A DNA stretch of 37,453 nucleotides from Ruminococcus sp. GTDB taxonomy: Bacteria > Bacillota > Clostridia > Oscillospirales > Ruminococcaceae. The stretch lies in assembly GCA_017620025.1 (NCBI GenBank), contig JAFZRF010000005.1, positions 1 to 37,453 of the forward strand, read 5' to 3'. Shown here piece after piece: positions 8,683-37,453 of the stretch. A program made the translations under genes and the position numbers. Below the pieces are notes generated by a model that had not been told where the DNA came from, did no database searches, and worked only from the letters and a program-made list of their open reading frames with translations. Every line of letters begins with the position of its first letter. Within the stretch, counting starts at the first letter, position 1.

Positions 8683-8689
8683 TATTACT

Positions 8690-8855
8690 AAGGTAGAGGT
8701 GCGGCTGAAAAGAGTACCTGTGCAGAGGACCACCTGTCCGGTGAAGCACAGTGAAAGGTGATGCTGCCGAGGGGCTGTTTCCGGTAAACTCAGCTCCGGC
8801 TCGGGACTTAACAGGTCTCCGGCTGTCATCATTTGTTATGATGGAGAGCTATCGC
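8690..8855 (+). promoter_or_regulatory. Lysine riboswitch (L box)
   Basis: The conserved blocks of the lysine aptamer are present in order. AGGTAGAGGTGCGG (8691-8704) is followed by AAGAGTA, then GTGAAAGGTGATGCTGCCGA (compare the B. subtilis lysC GGCTGAAAGG and GTCGCCGAAG blocks), and finally GGCTGTCA plus TGGAGAGCTATC (to about 8853). The closing P1 helix pairs GGTAG (8692-8696) with CTATC (8849-8853). A P4-like stem GGGCTG/CAGCTCC is visible. With the terminator at 8899-8929 it should switch off the lysine operon by transcription termination when lysine is bound. Confidence 0.92.
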
Positions 8856-8898
8856 ATAATACATTTATGCCATGTATTTCTATTATAACTCATGATGG

Positions 8899-8960: not shown

Positions 8961-10043
8961 ATGAAAAAGCAGTACAATGTCGGCATAATCGGCGCTACGG
9001 GTATGGTAGGTCAGAGATTTGCAACACTTCTTGAGAACCACCCGTGGTTCAACGTAAAGGTGCTCGCTGCATCGCCCAGATCAGCAGGCCAGACTTATGA
9101 GGAGGCAGCAGGCAGCAGATGGAAGATGACAACTCCCATGCCTGAGTCCATGAAGAATATGGTGCTCCTCGATGCAACAAGTGATATTGAGAAGATCGCA
9201 GAGCAGGTTGATTTCTGCTTCTGTGCAGTAGATATGAAGAAGGACGAGATCAAGGTCCTTGAGGAGAAATACGCAAAGGCTGAGTGCCCGATCGTATCCA
9301 ACAACTCCGCACACCGTTTCACACCCGATGTACCTATGGTAGTACCGGAGATCAACCCTGAGCATATCGAGATCATCAAGGCTCAGAGAGAGCGTCTCGG
9401 CACAAAGAGAGGCTTCATCGCAGTCAAGTCCAACTGCTCAATCCAGAGCTATGTTCCCGCACTTCACCCGCTGAGAAAGTTCGGCCTTACAAAGGTCCTC
9501 GCCTGCACATACCAGGCTATCTCCGGCGCAGGCAAGAACTTCGAGACATGGCCTGAGATGCTGGATAATCTTATCCCGTATATCGGCGGCGAAGAGGAGA
9601 AATCCGAGCAGGAGCCGCTGAAGGTATGGGGCGAGATCAAAGGCAACGAGATCGTGAAGGCAGAGACTCCTCTGATCACGACACAGTGCCTGAGAGTTCC
9701 CGTATCAGACGGACACACAGCAGCAGTATTCGTATCCTTTGAGAACAAGCCCTCCAAGGAAGAGATCCTCCAGCTCTGGAAGGACTTCAAGGGCGTACCG
9801 CAGGAGCTCGAGCTTCCCAGCGCACCCAAGCAGTTCATCCACTACTTTGAGGAGAACGACCGTCCGCAGGCAAAGCTCGACAGAAACCTCGAGGGCGGTA
9901 TGGCAGTATCAACAGGACGTCTCCGTGAGGATACACAGTACGATTACAAGTTCGTATGCCTTTCACACAATACACTCAGAGGCGCAGCCGGCGGCGGAGT
10001 ACTTCTCGCAGAGCTGCTTGCAGCCAAAGGATACTTTGATTAA
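8961..10043 (+). CDS. asd: Aspartate-semialdehyde dehydrogenase
   Basis: Asd reduces aspartyl phosphate to aspartate semialdehyde, the branch point to lysine, threonine and methionine. The 360-aa protein begins with the NADP-binding GIIGATGMVGQRF (8-20). The catalytic cysteine is C159 in VKSNCSIQS, and the active-site histidine is H252 in VPVSDGHTAAV. The SNCS rather than GNCT context and the overall length fit the archaeal/fungal-like branch of the family. It is the first gene after the lysine riboswitch, with AAAGGAG 9 bases before ATG. A four-helix-bundle cassette separates it from dapA. Confidence 0.95.
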   Translation: MKKQYNVGIIGATGMVGQRFATLLENHPWFNVKVLAASPRSAGQTYEEAAGSRWKMTTPMPESMKNMVLLDATSDIEKIAEQVDFCFCAVDMKKDEIKVLEEKYAKAECPIVSNNSAHRFTPDVPMVVPEINPEHIEIIKAQRERLGTKRGFIAVKSNCSIQSYVPALHPLRKFGLTKVLACTYQAISGAGKNFETWPEMLDNLIPYIGGEEEKSEQEPLKVWGEIKGNEIVKAETPLITTQCLRVPVSDGHTAAVFVSFENKPSKEEILQLWKDFKGVPQELELPSAPKQFIHYFEENDRPQAKLDRNLEGGMAVSTGRLREDTQYDYKFVCLSHNTLRGAAGGGVLLAELLAAKGYFD

Positions 10044-16094: not shown

Positions 16095-16120
16095 ACAGCC
16101 GCAGAAAACTCTGCGGCTGT
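16095..16120 (+). terminator. Hairpin after the lipoprotein operon
   Basis: ACAGCCGCAGA pairs perfectly with TCTGCGGCTGT around AAAC. There is no strong T tract. The stem is nearly identical to the hairpin at 16351-16382 on the other side of repeat copy 2. Confidence 0.6.
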
Positions 16121-16142: not shown

Positions 16143-16320
16143 ATCAGGGGACGCCTTCACTTGCAAGGCGTCCCCTCTTTCCAAACAGTCCCCCGGACTG
16201 TTTGGAAATTCACCCCTTGCGAAGCGCCCTGCGGAAAAATGCGGGACTCTGTCCCACACCCTGCCAGAGGCGCTGCCTCTGGACTCCGCTAAAGGGGCGC
16301 AGCCCCTTTAGCATCCCAGA
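16143..16320 (+). repeat. Multi-hairpin dispersed repeat, copy 2
   Basis: This complete copy runs from ATCAGGGGACGCC to CCCCTTTAGCATCCCAGAC. Hairpins in order are GGGGACGCCTT/AAGGCGTCCCC, CCAAACAGTC/GACTGTTTGG, GGGAC/GTCCC, CCAGAGGC/GCCTCTGG and CTAAAGGGG/CCCCTTTAG. It lies between the converging lipoprotein operon and metY-like gene, bracketed by two similar terminator hairpins. Confidence 0.92.
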
Positions 16321-16350: not shown

Positions 16351-16382
16351 AACAGCCGCAGAGTTTATGCTCTGCGGCTGTT
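16351..16382 (-). terminator. Terminator hairpin of the sulfhydrylase gene
   Basis: AACAGCCGCAGAG (16351-16363) and CTCTGCGGCTGTT (16370-16382) form a perfect 13-bp stem, about 30 bases after the sulfhydrylase stop on the minus strand. On that strand it is followed by TACTTGT, a weak T tract. Confidence 0.65.
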
Positions 16383-21370: not shown

Positions 21371-24283
21371 TCAGCCTATAGTTACGGTCGCAGTAACTGT
21401 TTTATGTGCGGAGCTTATCTCTGCTTCGGGCAGAAGATTTATCACCGGGTCATTGTTTCCGTCCCAGAGTACACGCTTGATGCGTGTGTGACGGCAGGGA
21501 TCGTAAAGCGGATCGGCGTTGTATGTACCGCAGGCCTTTGATGAATGTGAATCCGGACGAGCGTGATAAACCAGCAGCAGATCGCCTTTTTCACTTCTTA
21601 CAAATGAATTGTGACCGGGGCCTGATTCGCCGTGAAGGTCCGATGTCGAGAGAACAGGATAGGAGAGCTTCTTCCAGCTCTTCGTATTCATCAGGTCAGC
21701 ATCTGCGTCTGCTTCAAGTCTTCCGACACAGTATTCAGAGCCTGTTCCTGACGCTGAGAAGAAAACGTAGATCTTGTTTGATGTCTTGAGAACAGCTGCT
21801 CCCTCATTTACCCTGTGGTTGACGAGCTCCCAGTCGTACTCGGGCTGTGTCAGCATAATAGGATAAGAGAGCAGCTTCCAGGGTTCGGCGGGATCTATCT
21901 CTGCCATGAATAGGGAGGAATCTCCCTTTATCTCAGCCCATATAACATAGTGCCTGCCGTTGTTCTCGAAGTATGTCATGTCAAGCGAAAAGCTCCTGAA
22001 CGATTCCGTATCTCCGGCAGCCGCCTGCATCTGTCCGCATTCCGTCCAGCTGCCGTTATACGGATCACCGCTGCATTTGAGGACGTAGGGACGTATCGCC
22101 CATACATCCTCGCTTGAGCCGGCTGCAAAGAACATATACCAGGCGTTCCCGATATAATGCATCTCAGGTGCCCAGATATGCTTGGCAAGTATTCCGCTTG
22201 AATGAGCCTTCCAGATAGTCTTTTCCTCAGCGTTTGCAAGACCTGCAACGGTGTTGCTCCGCCGGAGGATTATCCTGTCATATCCCTTGTCAGCACTGCC
22301 GTATGCCGGATAGGAGGCGGTGAAGTAGAAATATCCGTCACCGCCGTCAACTATGTAGGGATCGGCACGTTCCTCAATGAAAGGATTACTGAACATTTCC
22401 GCCGAGGATCTTGCAGTTCCTCTGACAGTATATGTACCGGGCTTTGAAGTATTAATGGCAGCGACATCGGCCTGATTCCATTCAACGCTGACTTCAGCTC
22501 TTCCGCCGTTGCTGTAGAGCGCTACAGCAGTGTCCGGCAGCGAAGCCTCACAGTTCGTGAGCACATTCACATTGATCGGTTCATAGCCGGTATGTATTGC
22601 CGAAAGTCCGTCAGACGGATAAGCATTTACAAGAGCCGTGTACTGATCAGCGTTTATCGGTATTACATAGCCGTGACGCGGAGTGAAGTCAAAGCTGTAG
22701 CTGCTGCGGTCAACTGTAGTGAGGTTTTCCATATCGGTAGTTTCCTGCATTACATAGTAACCGTCGCCGTAGGCATCTGACATCATTATCCACTTGTCCG
22801 TTCCGATAAGGTTGTATACATTCGGGCCTTCAACACCTATATTGCCTTCGGATACCTGCTTGATCTCCCTGTAAGGGCCGCTTGCATGATCGGCGATACC
22901 GAGCTTTATCCTCTTGGTAGTCTCATCCTTGTAGTACATATAGTACTTGTTGTTAGTGTATATGATATCCGAGTCAATAGCGTCATGTCCGTCAGCCGGT
23001 GCAAAGAGGAGAGCCGGAGCGGTATCAAGAGTCTTCAGATCCTTGCTGTAGGCGTAGTACATGACAGTTCTGTCGTCGATGCCGGGAACACGGGCTGCAT
23101 AGTAGATCATATAAGAACCCTTTTCCGGATCGTAGATGGCCTGAGGCGCCCATGCACGGTCAGCACCCATCATGGAGGGATACTTGTTTGCTATCTCTAT
23201 GATAGTATCATCGAACCAGTGTACAAGGTCGGTGGATTTGGCGCTTATAAGATTTCGGTTGCTGCTCCAGCCGAGTGAGGATTTCATATCTGTAGCAAGA
23301 AGGTGATAGAGCCCGTCCTCGCCCTTGAATATGAACGGGTCACGGATGCATTCCGTTCCTGCATTAGACTTCCACACAGCCCTGCCGCCGTTCAGCGCCT
23401 TGAAGTTGTAGCCGTCAAGACTAACAGCATAGGATAGACGTTCCTGCTCGGGAGCATTGCCGAGGAAGTAAGCAAAGAGATAGGCGACATCCGGTTTCTC
23501 AGCTGAAATATCCACAGTTCCCGGGATATCAGGAGACTTTCCGAGAAGAAAATCAGTGAGGAGAGAATAATCTGCGGCGGAGAGCATACCGTCACCGTTG
23601 AGATCACCGGCTTTTGTCATAATGCTGTCTGCACCGTATTTTATAGCTTTCTCTATGAAGATACGGTCGTAGGAGTCAACAACTCCGTCGGTGTTCATAT
23701 CACCGGCTATCAGGGTATACTTGTTGTCAGTCGGCCTGATATAGAACTTCTGTCCCTCGCCCTTCCAGTAATCCCACTGGTCTATATTTGCACCGTTGTC
23801 GTAGCTGATGTCGTATACATCAAGTGCAGCATTGCCGGAGCACTCGGCGGTGATATAGTAAGCGTCATCTGTACGGTGCAGTATGAAATGCTGAGCGGGG
23901 GAGTCCTTGTATTCCGAGAGCATGATGTTGCTGCCGTCCGTCGAGTCACCGCTTTCGACAGTCAGTGCAAGTGAAGGATTTCCGGCCGGAGAGATGCGGC
24001 ATAGGTTCTTTCCTGCGCTGGTGATCCTCCAGGTCTGCGAATCGTTGCCGAGTTTCTCCCACTGCTGCACATTGCCGTTGTCTGCAGCGGTTATGTATTT
24101 GCCGCTTAGTCTGACCATGATAGTATAATCAAGACCGCTTATGACTTCGCCGTACTCGTCAGCATAAGACGCACAAACAGCAGGGCTTGCCGCTTCCGCA
24201 TCTGGCGACGGCATGAACGGCGCAGCCTGAGCCGCAATCAGCAGAGCAGTAAAGATGCCCGCTGATCTTTTTATCAGTTTCAT
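21371..24283 (-). CDS. Secreted protein with CBM13-like lectin, internal dockerin and two GH43 domains
   Basis: This 970-aa protein is ordered as follows. A signal peptide (1-31) is followed by a ricin-type beta-trefoil/CBM13-like domain (about 45-185, with QxW-like turns TWRI, QHFIL, QKFYI). An internal type I dockerin (about 190-250) has GDMNTDGVVDSYD and GDLNGDGMLSAAD. The first GH43 five-blade propeller (about 262-560) has candidate acids D315 in IRDPFIF, D439 or D437 in AIDSDII and E485 in VEGPNVY. A short Big-like strand domain (about 570-622) precedes the second GH43 (about 632-930), with D641 in RADPYIV, D768 in SLDMTYF and E827 in NEGAAVL. GH43 enzymes are mostly beta-xylosidases or alpha-L-arabinofuranosidases, so arabinoxylan or arabinan debranching is likely. 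GAGGT stands 9 bases before ATG. Confidence 0.9.
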   Translation of the reverse strand: MKLIKRSAGIFTALLIAAQAAPFMPSPDAEAASPAVCASYADEYGEVISGLDYTIMVRLSGKYITAADNGNVQQWEKLGNDSQTWRITSAGKNLCRISPAGNPSLALTVESGDSTDGSNIMLSEYKDSPAQHFILHRTDDAYYITAECSGNAALDVYDISYDNGANIDQWDYWKGEGQKFYIRPTDNKYTLIAGDMNTDGVVDSYDRIFIEKAIKYGADSIMTKAGDLNGDGMLSAADYSLLTDFLLGKSPDIPGTVDISAEKPDVAYLFAYFLGNAPEQERLSYAVSLDGYNFKALNGGRAVWKSNAGTECIRDPFIFKGEDGLYHLLATDMKSSLGWSSNRNLISAKSTDLVHWFDDTIIEIANKYPSMMGADRAWAPQAIYDPEKGSYMIYYAARVPGIDDRTVMYYAYSKDLKTLDTAPALLFAPADGHDAIDSDIIYTNNKYYMYYKDETTKRIKLGIADHASGPYREIKQVSEGNIGVEGPNVYNLIGTDKWIMMSDAYGDGYYVMQETTDMENLTTVDRSSYSFDFTPRHGYVIPINADQYTALVNAYPSDGLSAIHTGYEPINVNVLTNCEASLPDTAVALYSNGGRAEVSVEWNQADVAAINTSKPGTYTVRGTARSSAEMFSNPFIEERADPYIVDGGDGYFYFTASYPAYGSADKGYDRIILRRSNTVAGLANAEEKTIWKAHSSGILAKHIWAPEMHYIGNAWYMFFAAGSSEDVWAIRPYVLKCSGDPYNGSWTECGQMQAAAGDTESFRSFSLDMTYFENNGRHYVIWAEIKGDSSLFMAEIDPAEPWKLLSYPIMLTQPEYDWELVNHRVNEGAAVLKTSNKIYVFFSASGTGSEYCVGRLEADADADLMNTKSWKKLSYPVLSTSDLHGESGPGHNSFVRSEKGDLLLVYHARPDSHSSKACGTYNADPLYDPCRHTRIKRVLWDGNNDPVINLLPEAEISSAHKTVTATVTIG

Positions 24284-24333
24284 ATAAACATGACCTCGCT
24301 TTCGTAATATGATACACGATATCTGTTAGTTTT

Positions 24334-24362
24334 ATTATACAGGTTGTATGAACAAATGTCAA
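24334..24362 (-). promoter_or_regulatory. Consensus promoter of the double-GH43 gene
   Basis: On the minus strand, TTGACA (24357-24362), exactly 17 bases, TATAAT (24334-24339): a full consensus match, leaving a leader of about 45 nt. Confidence 0.88.
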
Positions 24363-24373
24363 TACATATCTAT

Positions 24374-24388
24374 ATTTGTCGTACAAAT
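24374..24388. promoter_or_regulatory. Palindrome upstream of the double-GH43 promoter
   Basis: ATTTGT-CGT-ACAAAT, a 6-bp inverted repeat with a 3-base centre, 11 bases upstream of the -35 hexamer. It is a candidate regulator site; no family can be named. Confidence 0.35.
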
Positions 24389-24430
24389 TGAATAGTTCTG
24401 ACGATAAAACAAACACGAAACGCAAGATAT

Positions 24431-24455
24431 AAAAAGGAGCAGATCTCTCTGCTCC
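24431..24455 (-). terminator. Terminator beyond repeat copy 3
   Basis: GGAGCAGA (24436-24443) pairs with TCTGCTCC (24448-24455) around TCTC. On the minus strand it is followed by TTTTTATA. It stops leftward transcripts from the SPFH gene side before the double-GH43 promoter. Confidence 0.75.
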
Positions 24456-24482
24456 CTCATTATGTCCATGAACATTGGTTAT

Positions 24483-24660
24483 ATCAGGGGACGCCTTCAC
24501 TTGCAAGGCGTCCCCTCTTCCAAAACAGTCCCCCGGACTGTTTTGGAATTCACCCCTTGCGAAGCGCCCTGCGGATAAATGCGGGGCTTTGCCCCACACC
24601 CCACCAGAGGCGCTGCCTCTGGACTCCGCTAAAGGGGCGCAGCCCCTTTAGAATCCCAAA
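24483..24660 (+). repeat. Multi-hairpin dispersed repeat, copy 3
   Basis: A complete copy from ATCAGGGGACGCC to CCCCTTTAGAATCCCAAAC. It differs from copy 2 by paired changes: the third hairpin reads GGGGC/GCCCC instead of GGGAC/GTCCC, and the second stem has one extra A:T pair. It lies between two leftward terminators (24431-24455 and 24681-24715). Confidence 0.92.
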
Positions 24661-24680
24661 CCGATGAAGAATATACATAT

Positions 24681-24715
24681 ATAAAAACAAGGGGACAGAT
24701 CAATTCCGCCCCCTT
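24681..24715 (-). terminator. Terminator of the SPFH gene
   Basis: AAGGGG (24689-24694) pairs with CCCCTT (24710-24715). On the minus strand it is followed by GTTTTTAT. It lies 9 bases after the SPFH stop. Confidence 0.72.
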
Positions 24716-24723
24716 AAAGAGTC

Positions 24724-26067
24724 TTACTTGACTATATCGTAATCGTTGAAGGGATCTCCGCATTCAGCGCAGAATTTGGGAGGATTGAAGGGATCCTCAG
24801 GCTCCCAGCCGCATTTGTCACACTTGTAAAGAGGTGCACCTGCGGGCTTTGCCTTGCCGCACTCTGAGCAGAACTTACCCTTATTCACAGCACCGCACTC
24901 ACAGGTCCAGCCGTCAGCTGTAGCCTTCGGCTTTCCGCAGTTCTCACAGAACTTACCTGTATTTACAGCACCGCAGGAACAGGTCCAGCCGCCTGCGGGA
25001 GCAGCAGCACCGGGAGCTGCGCCTGCACCTGCAGCAGCAGCCTTCTGATTTGCAGCCATCTCAAAGAGACTGTTAGCATTGAGACCGCCTGCCTGCTGAG
25101 CCATACCCATGCCGTAGAAGCCCATAGCAGCGCCGTTTGCATTGCTTGCAGCGTTTGTCATAGCCTCAGCCTGAGCAGTTACCATAGTTGCAGCAGCGTT
25201 AGCAGCGTCACGGTTCCATGAAAGATCCTCGTACTTCTTGATCTTTGCCTCGTCCTCGGGATTGATAGTAACGGAGTCGATATTTACGAGATCAACATCG
25301 ATACCTCTTCTGTTTCTCCAGATATCAGCGAGAGCCTTCTGCATTGCCTGAGTGAGCTCATCAACCTTGACAGTAAGCTCGTCATATCTTATTGTATTTG
25401 AAAGATTGCCGAAGCCGGGCTGGAGCTTGCTGAGGAACTCACTTCTGAGCTGCTCGTCAAGACCGTCATCTGTGCGCTTGAAGAACTGTCCCTCGAAGTT
25501 TCCGCAGACATTTGCGAAGAAGAGTGAAGGATCGTAGATCTTGTAAGTATATGTACCGAAGCATCTTACACCGATGGTGAAAGGTCTTCCGATATCACCG
25601 GGATCATTGTAAGCAACTCTGAAGGGAACGGGGTTCTTTGTTCCGAACTTGTTTTCACGGATCTCCTTGGTATTGAAGTAGTAGATCCTCTGATCCTTGG
25701 CAACGACTCCGCCGTACTTCATTCTCTCCCATGTCTCCTTGAAGGTATTCTTGATACCTGCACCGAAGCTGCTTGAGAAGAAGCTGGGTGAAGCAGCGCT
25801 GTCGTAGGTGTAAACACCGGGGGTAGTAGCTATCTCAGTAACGATACCGTTATCGACCATGATCATAGCCTGTCCTTCGTTTACAACGATCTTGCTTCCG
25901 TTGGAAATAACGTTATCGCTGCCTTTGTTTGAACCGCCCTTGTTGTTTTTCTTCTGTCCCTTTGCTGCCAGAACCTCTGACGGAAGAGCGTCACAGATAA
26001 AGTACTCAAGGTACTGATCGCTCAGTGTTGTGGAAAAAGAAGAAAGAGCTGCGTAAATAAGTCCCAT
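24724..26067 (-). CDS. SPFH-domain protein with three zinc ribbons (YdjI-like)
   Basis: This 447-aa cytoplasmic protein belongs to the SPFH/'virion core protein' group that includes B. subtilis YdjI. It has DNVISNGSKIVVNEGQAMIMV (about 51-71), VAYNDPGDIGRPFTIGVRCFGTYTYKI (about 151-177), and a helical stretch ending at about 285. An Ala/Gly/Met-rich linker follows (about 287-359). The C-terminus carries three ribbons: C363/C365...C374/C377, C389/C391...C400/C403, and C416/C419...C433/C436. The role is probably membrane-stress or membrane-domain scaffolding; there is no membrane helix, so it would be recruited by partners. The start is at 26067, where GAAAGGAG precedes ATG; an in-frame ATG 54 bases upstream lacks a site. 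It is unrelated to the surrounding sugar genes. Confidence 0.85.
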   Translation of the reverse strand: MGLIYAALSSFSTTLSDQYLEYFICDALPSEVLAAKGQKKNNKGGSNKGSDNVISNGSKIVVNEGQAMIMVDNGIVTEIATTPGVYTYDSAASPSFFSSSFGAGIKNTFKETWERMKYGGVVAKDQRIYYFNTKEIRENKFGTKNPVPFRVAYNDPGDIGRPFTIGVRCFGTYTYKIYDPSLFFANVCGNFEGQFFKRTDDGLDEQLRSEFLSKLQPGFGNLSNTIRYDELTVKVDELTQAMQKALADIWRNRRGIDVDLVNIDSVTINPEDEAKIKKYEDLSWNRDAANAAATMVTAQAEAMTNAASNANGAAMGFYGMGMAQQAGGLNANSLFEMAANQKAAAAGAGAAPGAAAPAGGWTCSCGAVNTGKFCENCGKPKATADGWTCECGAVNKGKFCSECGKAKPAGAPLYKCDKCGWEPEDPFNPPKFCAECGDPFNDYDIVK

Positions 26068-26129
26068 AGTTATTAACTCCTTTCGGGAAATAATATACAG
26101 AAAATAATTATTGGTATACAACCAAAAAT

Positions 26130-26157
26130 ATTATAACATATTTGTACAGAGAATGCA
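26130..26157 (-). promoter_or_regulatory. Probable promoter of the SPFH gene
   Basis: On the minus strand, extended -10 TGTTATAAT with TATAAT at 26130-26135. The -35 is weak (TGCATT, 26152-26157, 16-base spacer). About 60 bases of leader precede the start. Confidence 0.5.
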
Positions 26158-26261
26158 CTACCTTTTTCTTCTCTTTTATATATTTTTATATTTTAACATA
26201 AACACGCTGCGAATAAAGTCTGTATATTCCTTCGATTTGTCAAAAATCACTTTTCCAAAAA

Positions 26262-26442
26262 AGTCTGGGATTCTAAAGGGGCTGCGCTCCTTTAGCGGAG
26301 TCCAGAGGCAGCGCCTCTGGCAGGGTGCGGGACGGAGTCCCACGAACAGTCGTAAAGCGCTTCGCAAGGGGTGAATTCCCAAACAGTCCGGGGGACTGTT
26401 TGGGAAGAGGGGACGCCTTGCAAGTGAAGGCGTCCCCTGATA
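26262..26442 (-). repeat. Multi-hairpin dispersed repeat, copy 4
   Basis: A complete copy in minus orientation, from TATCAGGGGACGCC (26442 leftward) to AATCCCAGACTT. The second stem reads CCCAAACAGTC/GACTGTTTGGG, a compensatory change against the other copies. The third loop region differs (GGGAC-TCC-GTCCC), and the block next to GCGAAGCGC has diverged. It fills most of the 515-base gap between the GH5 terminator and the SPFH gene. Confidence 0.9.
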
Positions 26443-26484
26443 AAACTAAGGTTTTTGAAATACTGAGGAAACGTAATACCTTTT

Positions 26485-26540
26485 ATAATAAAAAATGACC
26501 GCAGGATCTCCGGTCGGGATCCGGGGATCTTGCAGTCATT
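26485..26540 (-). terminator. Terminator of the GH5 gene
   Basis: An 18-base stem with few mismatches (26494-26511 with 26523-26540) is followed on the minus strand by TTTTTTATTA. It lies about 40 bases after the GH5 stop. Confidence 0.82.
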
Positions 26541-26582
26541 TGCGGTGAGATGTCCTGTTTCAAAGAGGGGTGAAACAGGGCA

Positions 26583-27536
26583 TCACAGATATCTGAGCAG
26601 ATCGGAGCGTACACGGTCAAGGTGACGGTCGGTGAGTCCGAAATCCATTTCCTTGTAGCTCCAGGCGCATCTTCCGATGCCGTGCTTTTCAAATACGGAG
26701 TTGATATCTCTGTACCATGCGATAGTGTCCTCAGGACTTACCTTATCTATGATACCGAATTCTCCGCAGTAAAGCTGTGCTCCGTGTGCCTTTGCCTTTG
26801 CTATGGCAGAGGCGAAGAAGTCCTCAAAGAACTTGGGAGAGCATCCGCTCTCGGCGTAGGACATCCTTGCACCGGGATCGATGCGGTCAGTCCAGTAAGC
26901 GCCCTGATGTGTGAATCTGAGAGGATCGTAGCAGTGGAAGTTGTATACAACCTTATCGTCATAGGGGGCATCGAGGAACTGTACTGTCTCGGCGCTGTTG
27001 TTTTCATAGCTGCCGACGAGTATCAGTGTATCAGGTGCGTACTTCCTTATCCTCGGGATAACTTCCTTAACTACTCTGTTCCATACGGTTATGTAGCTCT
27101 CCTCAGTGATCTCGTTGAGAAGCTCAAAGGCGACTGAGTCATGATACTGACCGAAGCGCTTTGCTATCTCCTCCCAGAGCCTGCAGAAGCGCTCCTGATA
27201 TTCAGGACTGTCGAAGAAGCCTGATTCGCTCTCGCCGTAGGAATCAAAGGAGAAGCCTGCTGTTTTATGGAGGTCAAGAACTGTATTCAGATCGTATTTG
27301 CGGCATACCTTTACAGCGTTATCGAGTCTTGCAAAGCCTGTCTCGTTATAGCTGCCGTCCTCATTCTCAAGGATGTTGTAGTCGAAGGGGATCCGTACAT
27401 GATCTGCGCCCCATGATGCAATGACCTCAATATCCTTTTCTGTGATGAAGCCGTTCAGTCTCTCGTCACTGTAATCGCACTGTGAGAGCCATCCGCCGAG
27501 GTTCACGCCTTTGTAGAAGCCTAATTCCTTAAGCAT
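26583..27536 (-). CDS. GH5 family beta-glycosidase without signal peptide
   Basis: This 317-aa TIM-barrel enzyme of clan GH-A has the GVNLGGWLSQ entry (10-19) and WGADHVRIPFDY (42-53). The DLHK motif is at 88-91, the acid/base Glu is E142 in ELLNEIT, and the nucleophile Glu is E259 in YCGEFG. It consists of the catalytic domain only: no signal peptide, binding module or dockerin, unlike its neighbours. It should therefore work in the cytoplasm on imported beta-glucan oligosaccharides (cellodextrins or mixed-linkage products) or a glycoside. The subfamily and exact substrate are not determined. GAGGTG stands before ATG. It lies 115 bases behind the triple-GH16 gene in the same direction and may share its transcript. 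Confidence 0.88.
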   Translation of the reverse strand: MLKELGFYKGVNLGGWLSQCDYSDERLNGFITEKDIEVIASWGADHVRIPFDYNILENEDGSYNETGFARLDNAVKVCRKYDLNTVLDLHKTAGFSFDSYGESESGFFDSPEYQERFCRLWEEIAKRFGQYHDSVAFELLNEITEESYITVWNRVVKEVIPRIRKYAPDTLILVGSYENNSAETVQFLDAPYDDKVVYNFHCYDPLRFTHQGAYWTDRIDPGARMSYAESGCSPKFFEDFFASAIAKAKAHGAQLYCGEFGIIDKVSPEDTIAWYRDINSVFEKHGIGRCAWSYKEMDFGLTDRHLDRVRSDLLRYL

Positions 27537-27571
27537 ATTATCACCTCAATATAGATCTTTCTTTTCAGAGT

Positions 27572-27606
27572 TTCAGGCGCATAGGGTAGGGACCTGTGCG
27601 CCTGAA
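27572..27606 (-). other. Intercistronic hairpin between GH16 and GH5 genes
   Basis: TTCAGGCGCA (27572-27581) and TGCGCCTGAA (27597-27606) form a perfect 10-bp stem with a 15-base loop that can pair further. No T tract follows on either strand, so it looks like an mRNA-stabilising or processing hairpin rather than a strong terminator. Confidence 0.55.
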
Positions 27607-27651
27607 TGCTCGGGGGGTAAATATCGATTGTAAAGAAGATAACTTAACTGA

Positions 27652-30444
27652 TTACTGCTTGTTGAATGTTACCCACTGGTAGTGCGCCTCGAGAGGTGTT
27701 CTGCCGTCATAGTGCTGGAGCCACTCGTCAACGCCTGTGCCGGGCCATGTGTTCATCATGATACGGCCGGGAGTCTGGGGGATATTCTGATTTGCAGTGT
27801 ATACAGCCTTGCCGTCAACATACCATGTGATGTGGTCACGCTGCCAGTCGAAGCCGTATGTGTGGAAGCCCTGTGAAGCATCGAATCCAAGATCATACAT
27901 GAACTCGTGATTGCCCTGGCCGTTGGTGTAGTAGTTGAACTGAACCTTTGTGGTATCCTTACCGAGAACCTCGATATCTATCTCGTCCCAGGGATTGTCC
28001 TCAGAAGGACCTGTGTAGGTAAAGAAGGAAGAAACAACGCCGGGGTTCTTGATAGCCTGCATTGATGTCTCGTAGTAACCGAAACCGTAGTGATCAGTAG
28101 TTCTGTACTCAGCGCCGGTGTAATTGTACTTGCCTGTATAATCCTTGTCGATCTTCAGAGTGAGCATTCCGTTGCTGAGTGAGGTGTTACCCTCTACCCA
28201 TCCGCAGTCGAAGCAATCACCGTTTGTCCATCCGTCTGAAGCGAAGAACAGAGGAGTTGAGCCCTTGCGGAAGTCTGCTACAGCTGTAGCACTTGAGTTC
28301 ATTGCTGTGCCGTAGTCAGTGATGCCGTTGTTGGAGGAGGGCTGCTGCTGACCGCCCTGCTGGGGGTTCTGCTGCTGGCCGCCCTGCTGCTCCCAGGGAT
28401 TCTGCTGCTGGCCGCCCCAGGGGTTCTGCTGCTGACCGCCCTGCTGGCTGCTGTTGGAGGAGGGATTGAATGTTACCCACTGGTAGTGAGCCTCGAGAGG
28501 AGTCTTGCCATCGTAGTGCTGGAGCCACTCGTCAACGCCTGTGCCGGGCCATGTGTTCATCATGATACGGCCGGGAGTTGTGGGAATATTGGATGTAGCC
28601 TTGTAAGCTTCCTTGCCGTCAACATACCATGTGATATGATCGGGCTGCCAGTCGAAGCCGTATGTGTGGAAGCCTTCGGAAGCGTCGAAGCCGAGATCAT
28701 ACATATACTCGTGCTTGCCAACACCGTTGGTGTAGTAGTTGAACTGTACCTTGGTTGTATCCTTACCGAGTACCTCGATATCGATCTCATCCCACGGATT
28801 GTCCTCAGAAGGACCTGTGTAGGTAAAGAAGGAAGATACAACGCCGGGATTCTTGATAGCCTGGAATGAGCACTCGTAGTAACCGTAGCTGTAGTGATCG
28901 GTTGTTCTGTACTCAGCGCCGGTGTAGTTGTACTTGCCTGTATAATCCTTGTCGATCTTCAGGGTAAGCATATTGTTGTTGAGTGAGGTGTTGCCCTCTA
29001 CCCATCCGCAGTCGAAGCAATCGCCGTTGGTCCATCCGTCTGAAGCAAAGAACAGAGGAGTAGCGCCCTTGCGGAAGTCTGCGATAGTAGCAGCGCTGGA
29101 GTTCATGGCAGTGCCGTAATCCTTGATGCTGCCGCTCTGCTGACCGCCCTGCTGCTCCCAGGGATTCTGCTGCTGGGGCTGTGTAGGAGCCTGTGTCGGG
29201 GGCTCAGTAGGAGCTACATACGGAGGCTGTGTGGGCTGCTGCTGTTCCCAGGGGTTCTGCTGCTGACCGCCCTGCTGTCCGTTGTTGCCCTTGGAGTCAT
29301 AAGTTACCCACTGGTAGTGAGCCTCGAGCGGAGTCTTGCCGTCATAGTGCTGGAGCCACTCGTCAACGCCTGTACCGGGCCATGTGTTCATCATGATACG
29401 GCCTGCAGTTGTGGGAATATTGGATGTAGCTTTGTAAGCTTCCTTGCCGTCAACATACCATGTGATATGATCGGGCTGCCAGTCAAAGCCGTATGTGTGG
29501 AAGCCTTCGGAAGCGTCGAAGCCGAGATCATACATATACTCGTGCTTGCCAACACCGTTGGTGTAGTAGTTGAACTGTACCTTGGTTGTATCCTTACCGA
29601 GTACCTCGATATCGATCTCGTCCCACGGATTGTCCTCAGAAGGACCTGTGTAGGTAAAGAAGGAAGATACAACGCCGGGGTTCTTGATAGCCTGGAATGA
29701 GCACTCGTAGTAACCGTAGCTGTAGTGATCGGTTGTTCTGTACTCAGCGCCGGTGTAGTTGTACTTGCCTGAATAATCCTTGTCGATCTTCAGAGTAAGC
29801 ATACCGTTGTCGAGTGAAGTATTGCCCTTTACCCATCCGCAGTCGAAGCAATCGCCGTTTGTCCATCCGTCAGAAGCGAAGAACAGAGGAGTTGAGCCCT
29901 TGCGGAAATCAGCTACCATAGTAGCATTGGAATTCATTGCTGTGCCGTAATCCTTTATGTTGTTGGAAGGAGTTACGGGCTCAGTCGGAGCCTGTGTAGG
30001 CGGCTGTGTCGGAGGCTGCGTTGGCGGCTGTGTGGGCGGCTGTGTAGGCGGCTGAGTTACCGGCTGCTGCCCCTGTGAGTATGACTCAGGAAGAGTAGTG
30101 ATAACGCCTGCATCGAACTTCTGGATCGAGATAGCGTCTGAACCGGTGATGCCGTCGCCGTTCATGTAAACATCAGCGTTTCTGCGTCCGTCCTCACTGA
30201 GAGCGTACTTTGTCTGATTTGCCACGAACTGAAGGATAGCAACTGCGTCCGCAACGTTTACACGGTTGTCACAGTTTGCGTCGCCCCACACATCGCTTGC
30301 CTTTACGGCAGAAACGATACCGTCAGCTCCTGAAACAGAGATGTTTGCAGCTGATGCTGTAGGTGATGCGACGGAACCAAATGCTGTCATCACTGAAAAA
30401 GCAGCTGCTGCCGCAGTGATGCGCCTGAACTTATTGTTTTTCAT
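27652..30444 (-). CDS. Dockerin protein with three tandem GH16 lichenase domains
   Basis: This 930-aa secreted protein has a signal peptide (1-33) and an N-terminal type I dockerin (about 52-118: [15 protein letters not shown] and [12 protein letters not shown]). A linker with repeated PPTQ follows (about 129-155). Three near-identical GH16 domains occupy about 162-382, 439-659 and 707-929, separated by Gln/Gly/Asn-Pro-Trp-rich linkers. Each domain carries the full retaining lichenase motif [10 protein letters not shown], with Glu pairs E276/E280, E553/E557 and E821/E825. The PWDEIDIE form and overall sequence fit beta-1,3-1,4-glucanase rather than laminarinase or agarase. All three copies therefore look catalytic and would hydrolyse mixed-linkage beta-glucan on a cellulosome. 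GAAAGGGG precedes ATG. Confidence 0.93.
27655..29961 (-). repeat. Three tandem near-identical GH16-encoding units
   Basis: Units of about 665 bases lie at 29299-29961, 28468-29130 and 27655-28326. The first two are nearly identical at DNA level over long stretches, including synonymous positions. The third is slightly more diverged (for example [10 protein letters not shown] for [10 protein letters not shown]). This points to recent duplication or continuing gene conversion. Confidence 0.9.
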
Positions 30445-37238: not shown

Positions 37239-37273
37239 AGGCTGCATGATCCTTTCATGCAGCCTGAGTTTTT
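37239..37273 (+). terminator. Terminator of the hydrolase-methyltransferase operon
   Basis: AGGCTGCATGA (37239-37249) pairs with TCATGCAGCCT (37255-37265), followed by GAGTTTTT. Confidence 0.9.
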
Positions 37274-37288
37274 CAATAAACCATAATT

Positions 37289-37453
37289 TGTCAGGGGACG
37301 CCTTCACTTGCAAGGCGTCCCCTCTTCCAAAACAGTCCCCCGGACTGTTTTGGAATTCACCCCTTGCGAAGCGCCCTGCGGAAAAATGCGGGACTCTGTC
37401 CCACACCCTGCCAGAGGCGCTGCCTCTGGACTCCGCTAAAGGGGCGCAGCCCC
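37289..37453 (+). repeat. Multi-hairpin dispersed repeat, copy 5 (cut by window end)
   Basis: It runs from GTCAGGGGACGCC through the same hairpin series to GGGGCGCAGCCCC at the last base, missing only the final TTTAG-ATCCCA end. Its third hairpin is the GGGAC/GTCCC form, as in copy 2. It begins 16 bases after the methyltransferase terminator. Confidence 0.9.

Follow-up and report, generated by a model that had tools for sequence, protein, structure and literature searches.

The window analysed here, 37,453 nt of a Ruminococcus sp. contig, contains five copies of an intergenic repeat. These repeats appear to be members of a family of small, gene-less mobile DNA with about 100 copies in the genome of this gut or rumen Ruminococcus. 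Most probably each is an old copy of a non-autonomous, MITE-like element, about 230-245 bp long, which was moved in trans by a transposase of the IS1182 family with duplication of a terminator hairpin. What would be novel is a MITE of the IS1182 family that duplicates terminator hairpins when it inserts and carries a conserved payload; in the part of the literature that was surveyed there is no description of the five-hairpin repeat, nor of IS1182 MITEs that duplicate hairpins.

A recheck of the whole window found the five copies, and within them the hairpins H1 to H5, where the first-pass annotation had placed them. The core of the repeat, as read from the sequence, comprises 171 bp with five hairpins and runs from GGGGACGCC to GAATCCC. 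Three cores in the window are intact: copy 2 (16147-16317, + strand), copy 3, the copy under study (24487-24657, +), and copy 4 (26267-26437, -). The ends of the contig truncate copy 1 (1-192, -, with its core at 1-189) and copy 5 (37289-37453, +, with its core from 37294). In this metagenome-assembled genome (MAG), several further contigs start inside a copy as well. In copy 3 the hairpins lie on the + strand at 24487-24515 (H1), 24520-24546 (H2, with the inner palindrome AAACAGTCC-N3-GGACTGTTT), 24583-24595 (H3), 24604-24622 (H4) and 24629-24651 (H5). H3 reads GGGGC/GCCCC only in copy 3 and GGGAC/GTCCC in copies 1, 2, 4 and 5. The variants of the H2 arms, re-read in the five copies, likewise have the matching changes on the partner arm: copies 1, 3 and 5 have CCAAAACAGTCC/GGACTGTTTTGG, copy 2 has TCCAAACAGTCC/GGACTGTTTGGA and copy 4 has CCCAAACAGTCC/GGACTGTTTGGG.

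The number of five copies holds for the window, but the family in the genome is far larger. In the MAG (G000; 2.7 Mb in 70 contigs, 75.9% complete) the H1 pattern had 107 matches with up to three mismatches, whereas the reversed control had none. The abundance of the repeat is thus far above chance. A pattern of H1 plus the following linker had 102 matches, 54 on one strand and 48 on the other, so that the MAG holds at least 102 copies; 92 distinct copies were gathered. The inner H2 palindrome and the linker ATTCACCCCTTGC hardly vary in the family, partly by choice, since the gathering pattern spans the palindrome and most of the linker. Copy 1 of the window carries a hairpin repeat of about 59 bp (..GTCCCCTCTGTCAGCTTCGCTGACATCTCCCCACACTGTGGGGAGTC..) between H3 and H4. 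The same repeat lies inside the core in all ten loci of this genome with a 228-230-bp copy (L080, L083, L086, L099, L103, L104, L108, L112, L113, L114), and a similar one is placed in H4 at a locus of a R. flavefaciens MAG (L195). It is a second small repeat that enters hairpin regions.

All copies had been described as lying just beyond gene 3' ends, and this is borne out for the genome: among the 67 of the 92 copies with enough flank and with neighbours callable by a simple ORF rule, 66 are faced by at least one gene 3' end. The neighbours are convergent in 39 cases, tandem in 27 and divergent in one (binomial p about 1e-8 for the convergent and about 1e-7 for the divergent class). The median distance from the 3' end of the left gene to the copy is 71.5 nt. 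In 13 of the 67 copies a mechanically called ORF of 90 aa or more overlapped the core. In the tandem pairs the core points one way in 13 cases and the other way in 14, i. e. no preference linked to transcription is seen.

Around the core the element ends in imperfect terminal inverted repeats (TIRs) of the form 5' CAGnnTGTC[A/G]A. The left flanks of this genome have the consensus TGTCAATAAACCATAGTTTTATCA with the motif TGTCAATAAACC, and the right flank, reversed, reads TGTCAAAAAG..., approximately TGTCAAAAAGTACTGTTTCAATCAG. Outward of each flank stretch there is often a terminator-like hairpin, named T1 on the left and T2 on the right. When the left motif, the only one scanned genome-wide, was searched with up to three mismatches, all 11 matches adjoined a core. 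By a looser test the T1 and T2 flanking one core were similar at 16 of 65 loci, compared with 1.4% of cross-locus pairs. This looked like inverted ends and a target duplication spanning a whole hairpin. T1 and T2 are alike in inverted orientation about as often as in direct orientation, which would not be expected of a simple duplication; flipping of the palindrome loop might account for the inverted cases.

Young copies in relatives have the same organisation in exact form. Here, units of 234-246 bp are bordered on both sides by an identical hairpin of 23-24 bp (L135, L035, L347). At L135 the 24-bp sequence AAAAGTCCGATCATTCGGACTTTT lies on each side and adjoins the ends CAGCCTGTTGAAAAAG and CAGAGTGTCGAAAAAC. 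The exact duplication measures 23 bp at L035 and 24 bp at L347 of the relative G128, and near-exact 24-bp duplications are found at L338 (one mismatch) and L145 (two mismatches). Altogether 5 of 15 five-hairpin loci in which both TIRs were recognised under strict rules have a duplication of 23-24 bp, compared with none of 2769 mismatched pairs. The TIRs of young copies, e. g. CAGTCTGTCAAAAAACC at L347 and L338, resemble by eye the insertion sequence ends CAGTCTGTCGAAAAAG and CAGTCTGTCCAAAAACC discussed below.

In the genome of the window itself, both strict TIRs are present at 6 of 89 core loci. None of these six copies has the hairpin duplication, which suggests that the copies of this genome are old or altered. 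Their units measure 228-286 bp (median 231.5 bp) and are thus too short for a transposase gene. The quality of the TIRs was equal in copies with and without T1/T2 similarity. In other lineages, where the core has different flanks in most cases, both TIRs were found at 4 of 119 core loci, 86 of which had enough flank. The ends of the copies in the window are decayed, and a recognisable T1/T2 pair is present only at copy 2 (T1 at 16095-16120; T2 at 16351-16382, T1-like and matching best when inverted). At copy 3 the decayed left TIR, which resembles IS1182 ends, occupies 24463-24486 (+) and the decayed right TIR region 24658-24691 (+). They are accompanied by T1 at 24436-24455 and by a weak right hairpin, T2, at 24689-24715, which is no clear copy of T1. 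T1 was also located at copy 5 (37239-37265) and copy 1 (219-242), and the hairpins adjacent to copy 4 are weak only.

For a comparison of occupied and empty sites, 20 stretches were read from G128, the closest relative in a genus search by core sequence (96%). At the sites L079 and L080, two terminators surround the element in the genome of the window; by eye, G128 has no element and one terminator there. Among the eight sites that aligned on both sides to one G128 stretch, these were the two clean empty sites; one was occupied and five were rearranged or held other sequence. At the L118 site two terminator copies surround the element in the genome of the window and three terminators are present in G128. 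Between the second and the third of these, whose 20-bp hairpins are identical, G128 carries a second MITE with similar ends and other contents. This second MITE-like family, with the interior GTCAGTTATGGCAGAAGTCAAGCGGGCGGATG.., was also seen at L333, L342 (two copies) and L344 in G128 and at L146. It too is accompanied by duplicated terminator hairpins (27 bp, exact, at L333). Since it lacks the five-hairpin core and yet duplicates hairpins, the core is not needed for movement. Orthologues of one neighbour gene of copy 2 were found in nine relatives; by eye, six of these have just one terminator-like hairpin there. As the second neighbour gene was not found in the nine, no clean empty site is available for copy 2.

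The ends point to the IS1182 family as the source of the transposase. P0001, a protein of the genus genome G057, is an IS1182 transposase (NF033551, 384 bits at a cut-off of 270, with DUF772 and DDE_Tnp_1_6). The ends beside its gene and beside those of its homologues include CAGTCTGTCGAAAAAG and CAGTCTGTCCAAAAACC and read CAGTCTGTCGAAAAAGTCC and CAGTCTGTCCAAAAACCCC, and the remnant ends at L296 and L309 (CAGCTTGTCAATAAACC, CAGCTTGTCAATAAACCCC) have TGTCAATAAACC in common with the consensus of the window family. At 17 of 20 ends of such insertion sequences (15 loci), which were picked by their TIR, a hairpin with a score of at least 8 ends 0-1 nt from the TIR; 2.7% of random 40-mers reach this score. 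In three of the five copies with two ends an exact hairpin duplication adjoins both ends (28 bp at L285, 23 bp at L286, 38 bp at L287). In the other two, the hairpins are unlike each other (L283) or there is an 8-bp repeat (L289). P0001's own copy has one end only, with a short hairpin of score 6. Judged by their sequences, the IS1182 elements and the MITEs thus have the kind of ends, the target and the duplication in common.

An IS1182-family match was found in 22 and 23 of 125 genus genomes with two queries, some of them fragments only, and no IS1182 transposase match was found in the 76%-complete MAG of the window. The core shows no enrichment in genomes with a transposase of the close group (5 of 8, compared with 73 of 125). 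That an IS1182 transposase moved the copies of the window is an inference. The proposal that the repeat is moved by a distant transposase is upheld in kind. However, the evidence points to a DDE transposase from the IS1182 family and not to the Y1/TnpA-REP-like one that the first-pass annotation had in mind.

DDE transposases join element ends to two target points, and some IS1182 elements have direct repeats of up to about 60 bp. The probable mechanism is that an IS1182-family transposase, supplied in trans, joins the ends of the element to the feet of a terminator hairpin. As to the chemistry, the stem-loop is presumably extruded as a cruciform, with its 5' feet as the points of joining. Repair and fill-in would then leave a complete hairpin on either side of the element. 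By this, a bidirectional terminator between convergent genes would become two terminators, and both genes would stay insulated. The data fit pathway b of the model figure in PMC5678879.

In that source, as far as it was seen, stem-loop duplication is drawn as pathway b without examples, and replacement of the stem-loop is treated as the actual mode of IS1272. According to the portions consulted of PMC5678879 and PMC4923244, the IS1182-family elements IS1272 and TnSha1 of staphylococci target stem-loops, several of them confirmed terminators, without a sequence consensus; they replace the stem-loop or delete part of it, and target duplications were not found. The elements described here resemble them in the family of the transposase and in the stem-loop or terminator target, but differ in that the whole hairpin is duplicated. 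Small elements with IS1182-like ends are known from other organisms. MITEPye1 of Paracoccus yeei is likewise small, non-autonomous, mostly intergenic and strongly folding, with IS1182-like TIRs; it differs in that its direct repeats measure 4 bp and each chromosome carries 1-3 copies, and the excerpts seen of PMC11578231 mention no hairpin duplication. Similarly, the ISMac2 MITEs of Methanosarcina acetivorans belong to the IS1182 family and are comparable in size (160 and 169 bp), with 14 and 7 copies, whereas their direct repeats are given as 4 or 0 and no terminator targeting is stated in the table passage of PMC3852290 that was seen. By description, not by sequence, the repeat can also be likened to the abundant short intergenic BOX, RUP and SPRITE repeats of pneumococci, of which SPRITE is terminator-like (PMC10969869, seen in part).

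High copy number, hairpins and a location beyond gene 3' ends are also what one would see in REP/BIME-like palindromes if a RAYT-type Y1 (HUH) transposase mobilised them, and Y1_Tnp is present in 23 of 60 Ruminococcus genomes (E <= 0.001), in 20 of them above the cut-off. However, Y1_Tnp had no match in the MAG of the window. This genome and G018, the two richest in first-look core candidates, are both without it, as are G015, G008, G007 and G011; G010, G012 and G019 have both core and Y1_Tnp. The H2/linker part of the core was absent from the flanks (up to 1.5 kb on each side) of all 30 Y1 loci fetched. Finally, the hairpin duplication observed here is unlike HUH insertion, which is not known to duplicate hairpins. 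A RAYT-type origin is therefore very improbable. Four Y1 proteins from other Ruminococcus (L236, L237, L241, L242; frames of 174-214 aa), which we take to be RAYT-like, have no core in their fetched flanks.

The matching changes in the hairpin arms had been read as a sign that the folded form is selected or is copied as a folded unit. Across species the covariation is clear. In a set with one sequence per genome (30 sequences; 24 pairs of H1 and H2), pairing is kept at 95.7%, and 8 of the 24 pairs show changes on both sides. Cells with both-side changes number 53, compared with 15.7 (sd 3.0) in shuffled sets and a maximum of 13 in controls with a slid partner, these nulls being shuffles and slides, not tree-based. 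The number of further pair types in the same set, 17, is no higher than in shuffles (16.3), and in 11 of the 30 sequences the outermost H1 bases do not pair. Within the genome of the window (60 cores of 165-175 bp from the 92 copies fetched) the covariation is thinner, with about three pairs carrying it. In H2 a change from A-T to C-G was compensated in seven cases and not compensated in five, six compensated changes were seen in H5, and H3 changed from A-T to G-C in 21 of the 60 cores (read at columns 99 and 105). The paired changes are thus real and exceed the shuffled and slid controls, but they are no proof of selection for an RNA fold. Conversion between the arms of a palindrome, at the DNA level, could also produce them.

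This bears on the alternative that the repeats form a structured RNA family with a role in 3' untranslated regions. Besides the H1/H2 covariation across species, it could draw on the conserved linker, the conservation of which is partly due to the gathering pattern. A mismatch count in H1 and H2 of 210 copies (179 stems scored from this genome and 221 from others) gave no pointer to an RNA read from the + strand: G.T was no commoner than A.C, with 6 versus 9 in this genome and 10 versus 40 in the others, where the A.C mismatches are mostly at the ends of the H1 stem. The excess of A.C over G.T would suit a transcript from the - strand. An automated pass over H3 to H5 counted 350 A.C and 96 G.T in this genome and 233 and 195 in the others; with many non-pairs due to misplaced stems, these counts were left aside. 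Rfam gave no match for the repeat at gathering scores in the window, and among eight related loci there were only two chance-like matches (E <= 0.5), neither convincing. Together with the unbiased orientation in tandem pairs and the missing G.T excess, this speaks against structured RNAs at mRNA ends. Moreover, an element between two terminator-like hairpins would probably be transcribed at a low level. Hence an RNA function of this kind is improbable, and the preferred reading remains that of a MITE moved by an IS1182-family transposase.

The core is far more uniform than its flanks. The cores of the 65 copies compared in this genome differ by a mean of 1.7 of 88 nt, and 28 are identical to the consensus. 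Their left flanks differ by a mean of 9.7 of 25 nt, and this difference is uncorrelated with that of the core. The uniformity is due either to conversion among old copies or to a function or mobility of the core itself. A possible interpretation is that the core is an independently spreading or self-homogenising module, for which IS1182-type flanks are one of several vehicles. It is consistent with this that in several other lineages, by eye, the boundaries of the core (GGGGACG...GAATCCC or similar) are kept next to unrelated flanks. The core L030, furthermore, is identical to a non-orthologous copy in G128 and 97.6% identical to its orthologue there, and the aligned DNA nearby is 82-95% identical between the two genomes. 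However, gene conversion among old copies leads to the same pattern, and several young copies of G128 keep their flanks too and look like one unit of about 245 bp. We consider an independent core rather unlikely. Insertion of the core alone into pre-existing palindromes was considered too; the G128 units with conserved flanks speak against it as the main mode, but it stays among the alternatives.

Sequence changes aside, the core is widespread in the genus. It was found in 73 of 125 genus genomes including the present one (E <= 1e-8). Of 39 relatives sampled, 23 belong to the same genus, and 16 of these have the core; among the 16 from the same order, one had a single short core match (E 9e-4). 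A pattern scan found it, among the matches listed, in named Ruminococcus flavefaciens genomes and in many rumen and gut MAGs. Four cores (L140, L163, L185, L201) lie on a 1.49-Mb contig labelled Alistipes, i. e. another phylum (JAMPAJ010000001.1), which means horizontal transfer or a wrong label. One partial core match, covering 26% of the query, came from a phage collection, and the core pattern was present on one IMG/VR contig. The H2 palindrome occurs in 14 IMG/VR stretches, 13 of which have no core by eye. In these viral contigs (L320-L332) the outer arms of AAACAGTCC-N3-GGACTGTTT are often matched; perhaps they belong to a wider family of palindromes.

As a broader and tentative interpretation, somewhat short of probable, these elements might be natural evidence of stem-loop-duplicating IS1182 transposition, in which a terminator is recognised by its shape, with a core that is a separately homogenised passenger of several unrelated vehicles across Ruminococcus. 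If so, each insertion would leave a complete terminator to both neighbours and would thus be nearly harmless, which would let the family reach about 100 copies, mainly between convergent genes. The sequence evidence, including the two empty sites, supports an insertion outcome that is only drawn as a possibility for IS1182 elements in the papers seen. It suggests a route by which mobile elements could multiply in a compact genome and yet spare its genes, namely by choosing and copying terminators. For other hairpin repeats between the genes of gut Clostridia, a comparison of the hairpins that flank each repeat could likewise be a way to find the mover.

Besides the repeats, the window contains a lysine riboswitch (RF00168, 105.8 bits) at 8686-8859, close upstream of a gene for a semialdehyde dehydrogenase (8961-10043). 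Genes for the degradation of plant fibre lie at 21371-30444 and encode a dockerin-bearing GH43 protein, a GH5 cellulase and a protein whose three GH16 stretches correspond to DNA repeats of about 300 bp; the set is as in cellulosome-bearing Ruminococcus.
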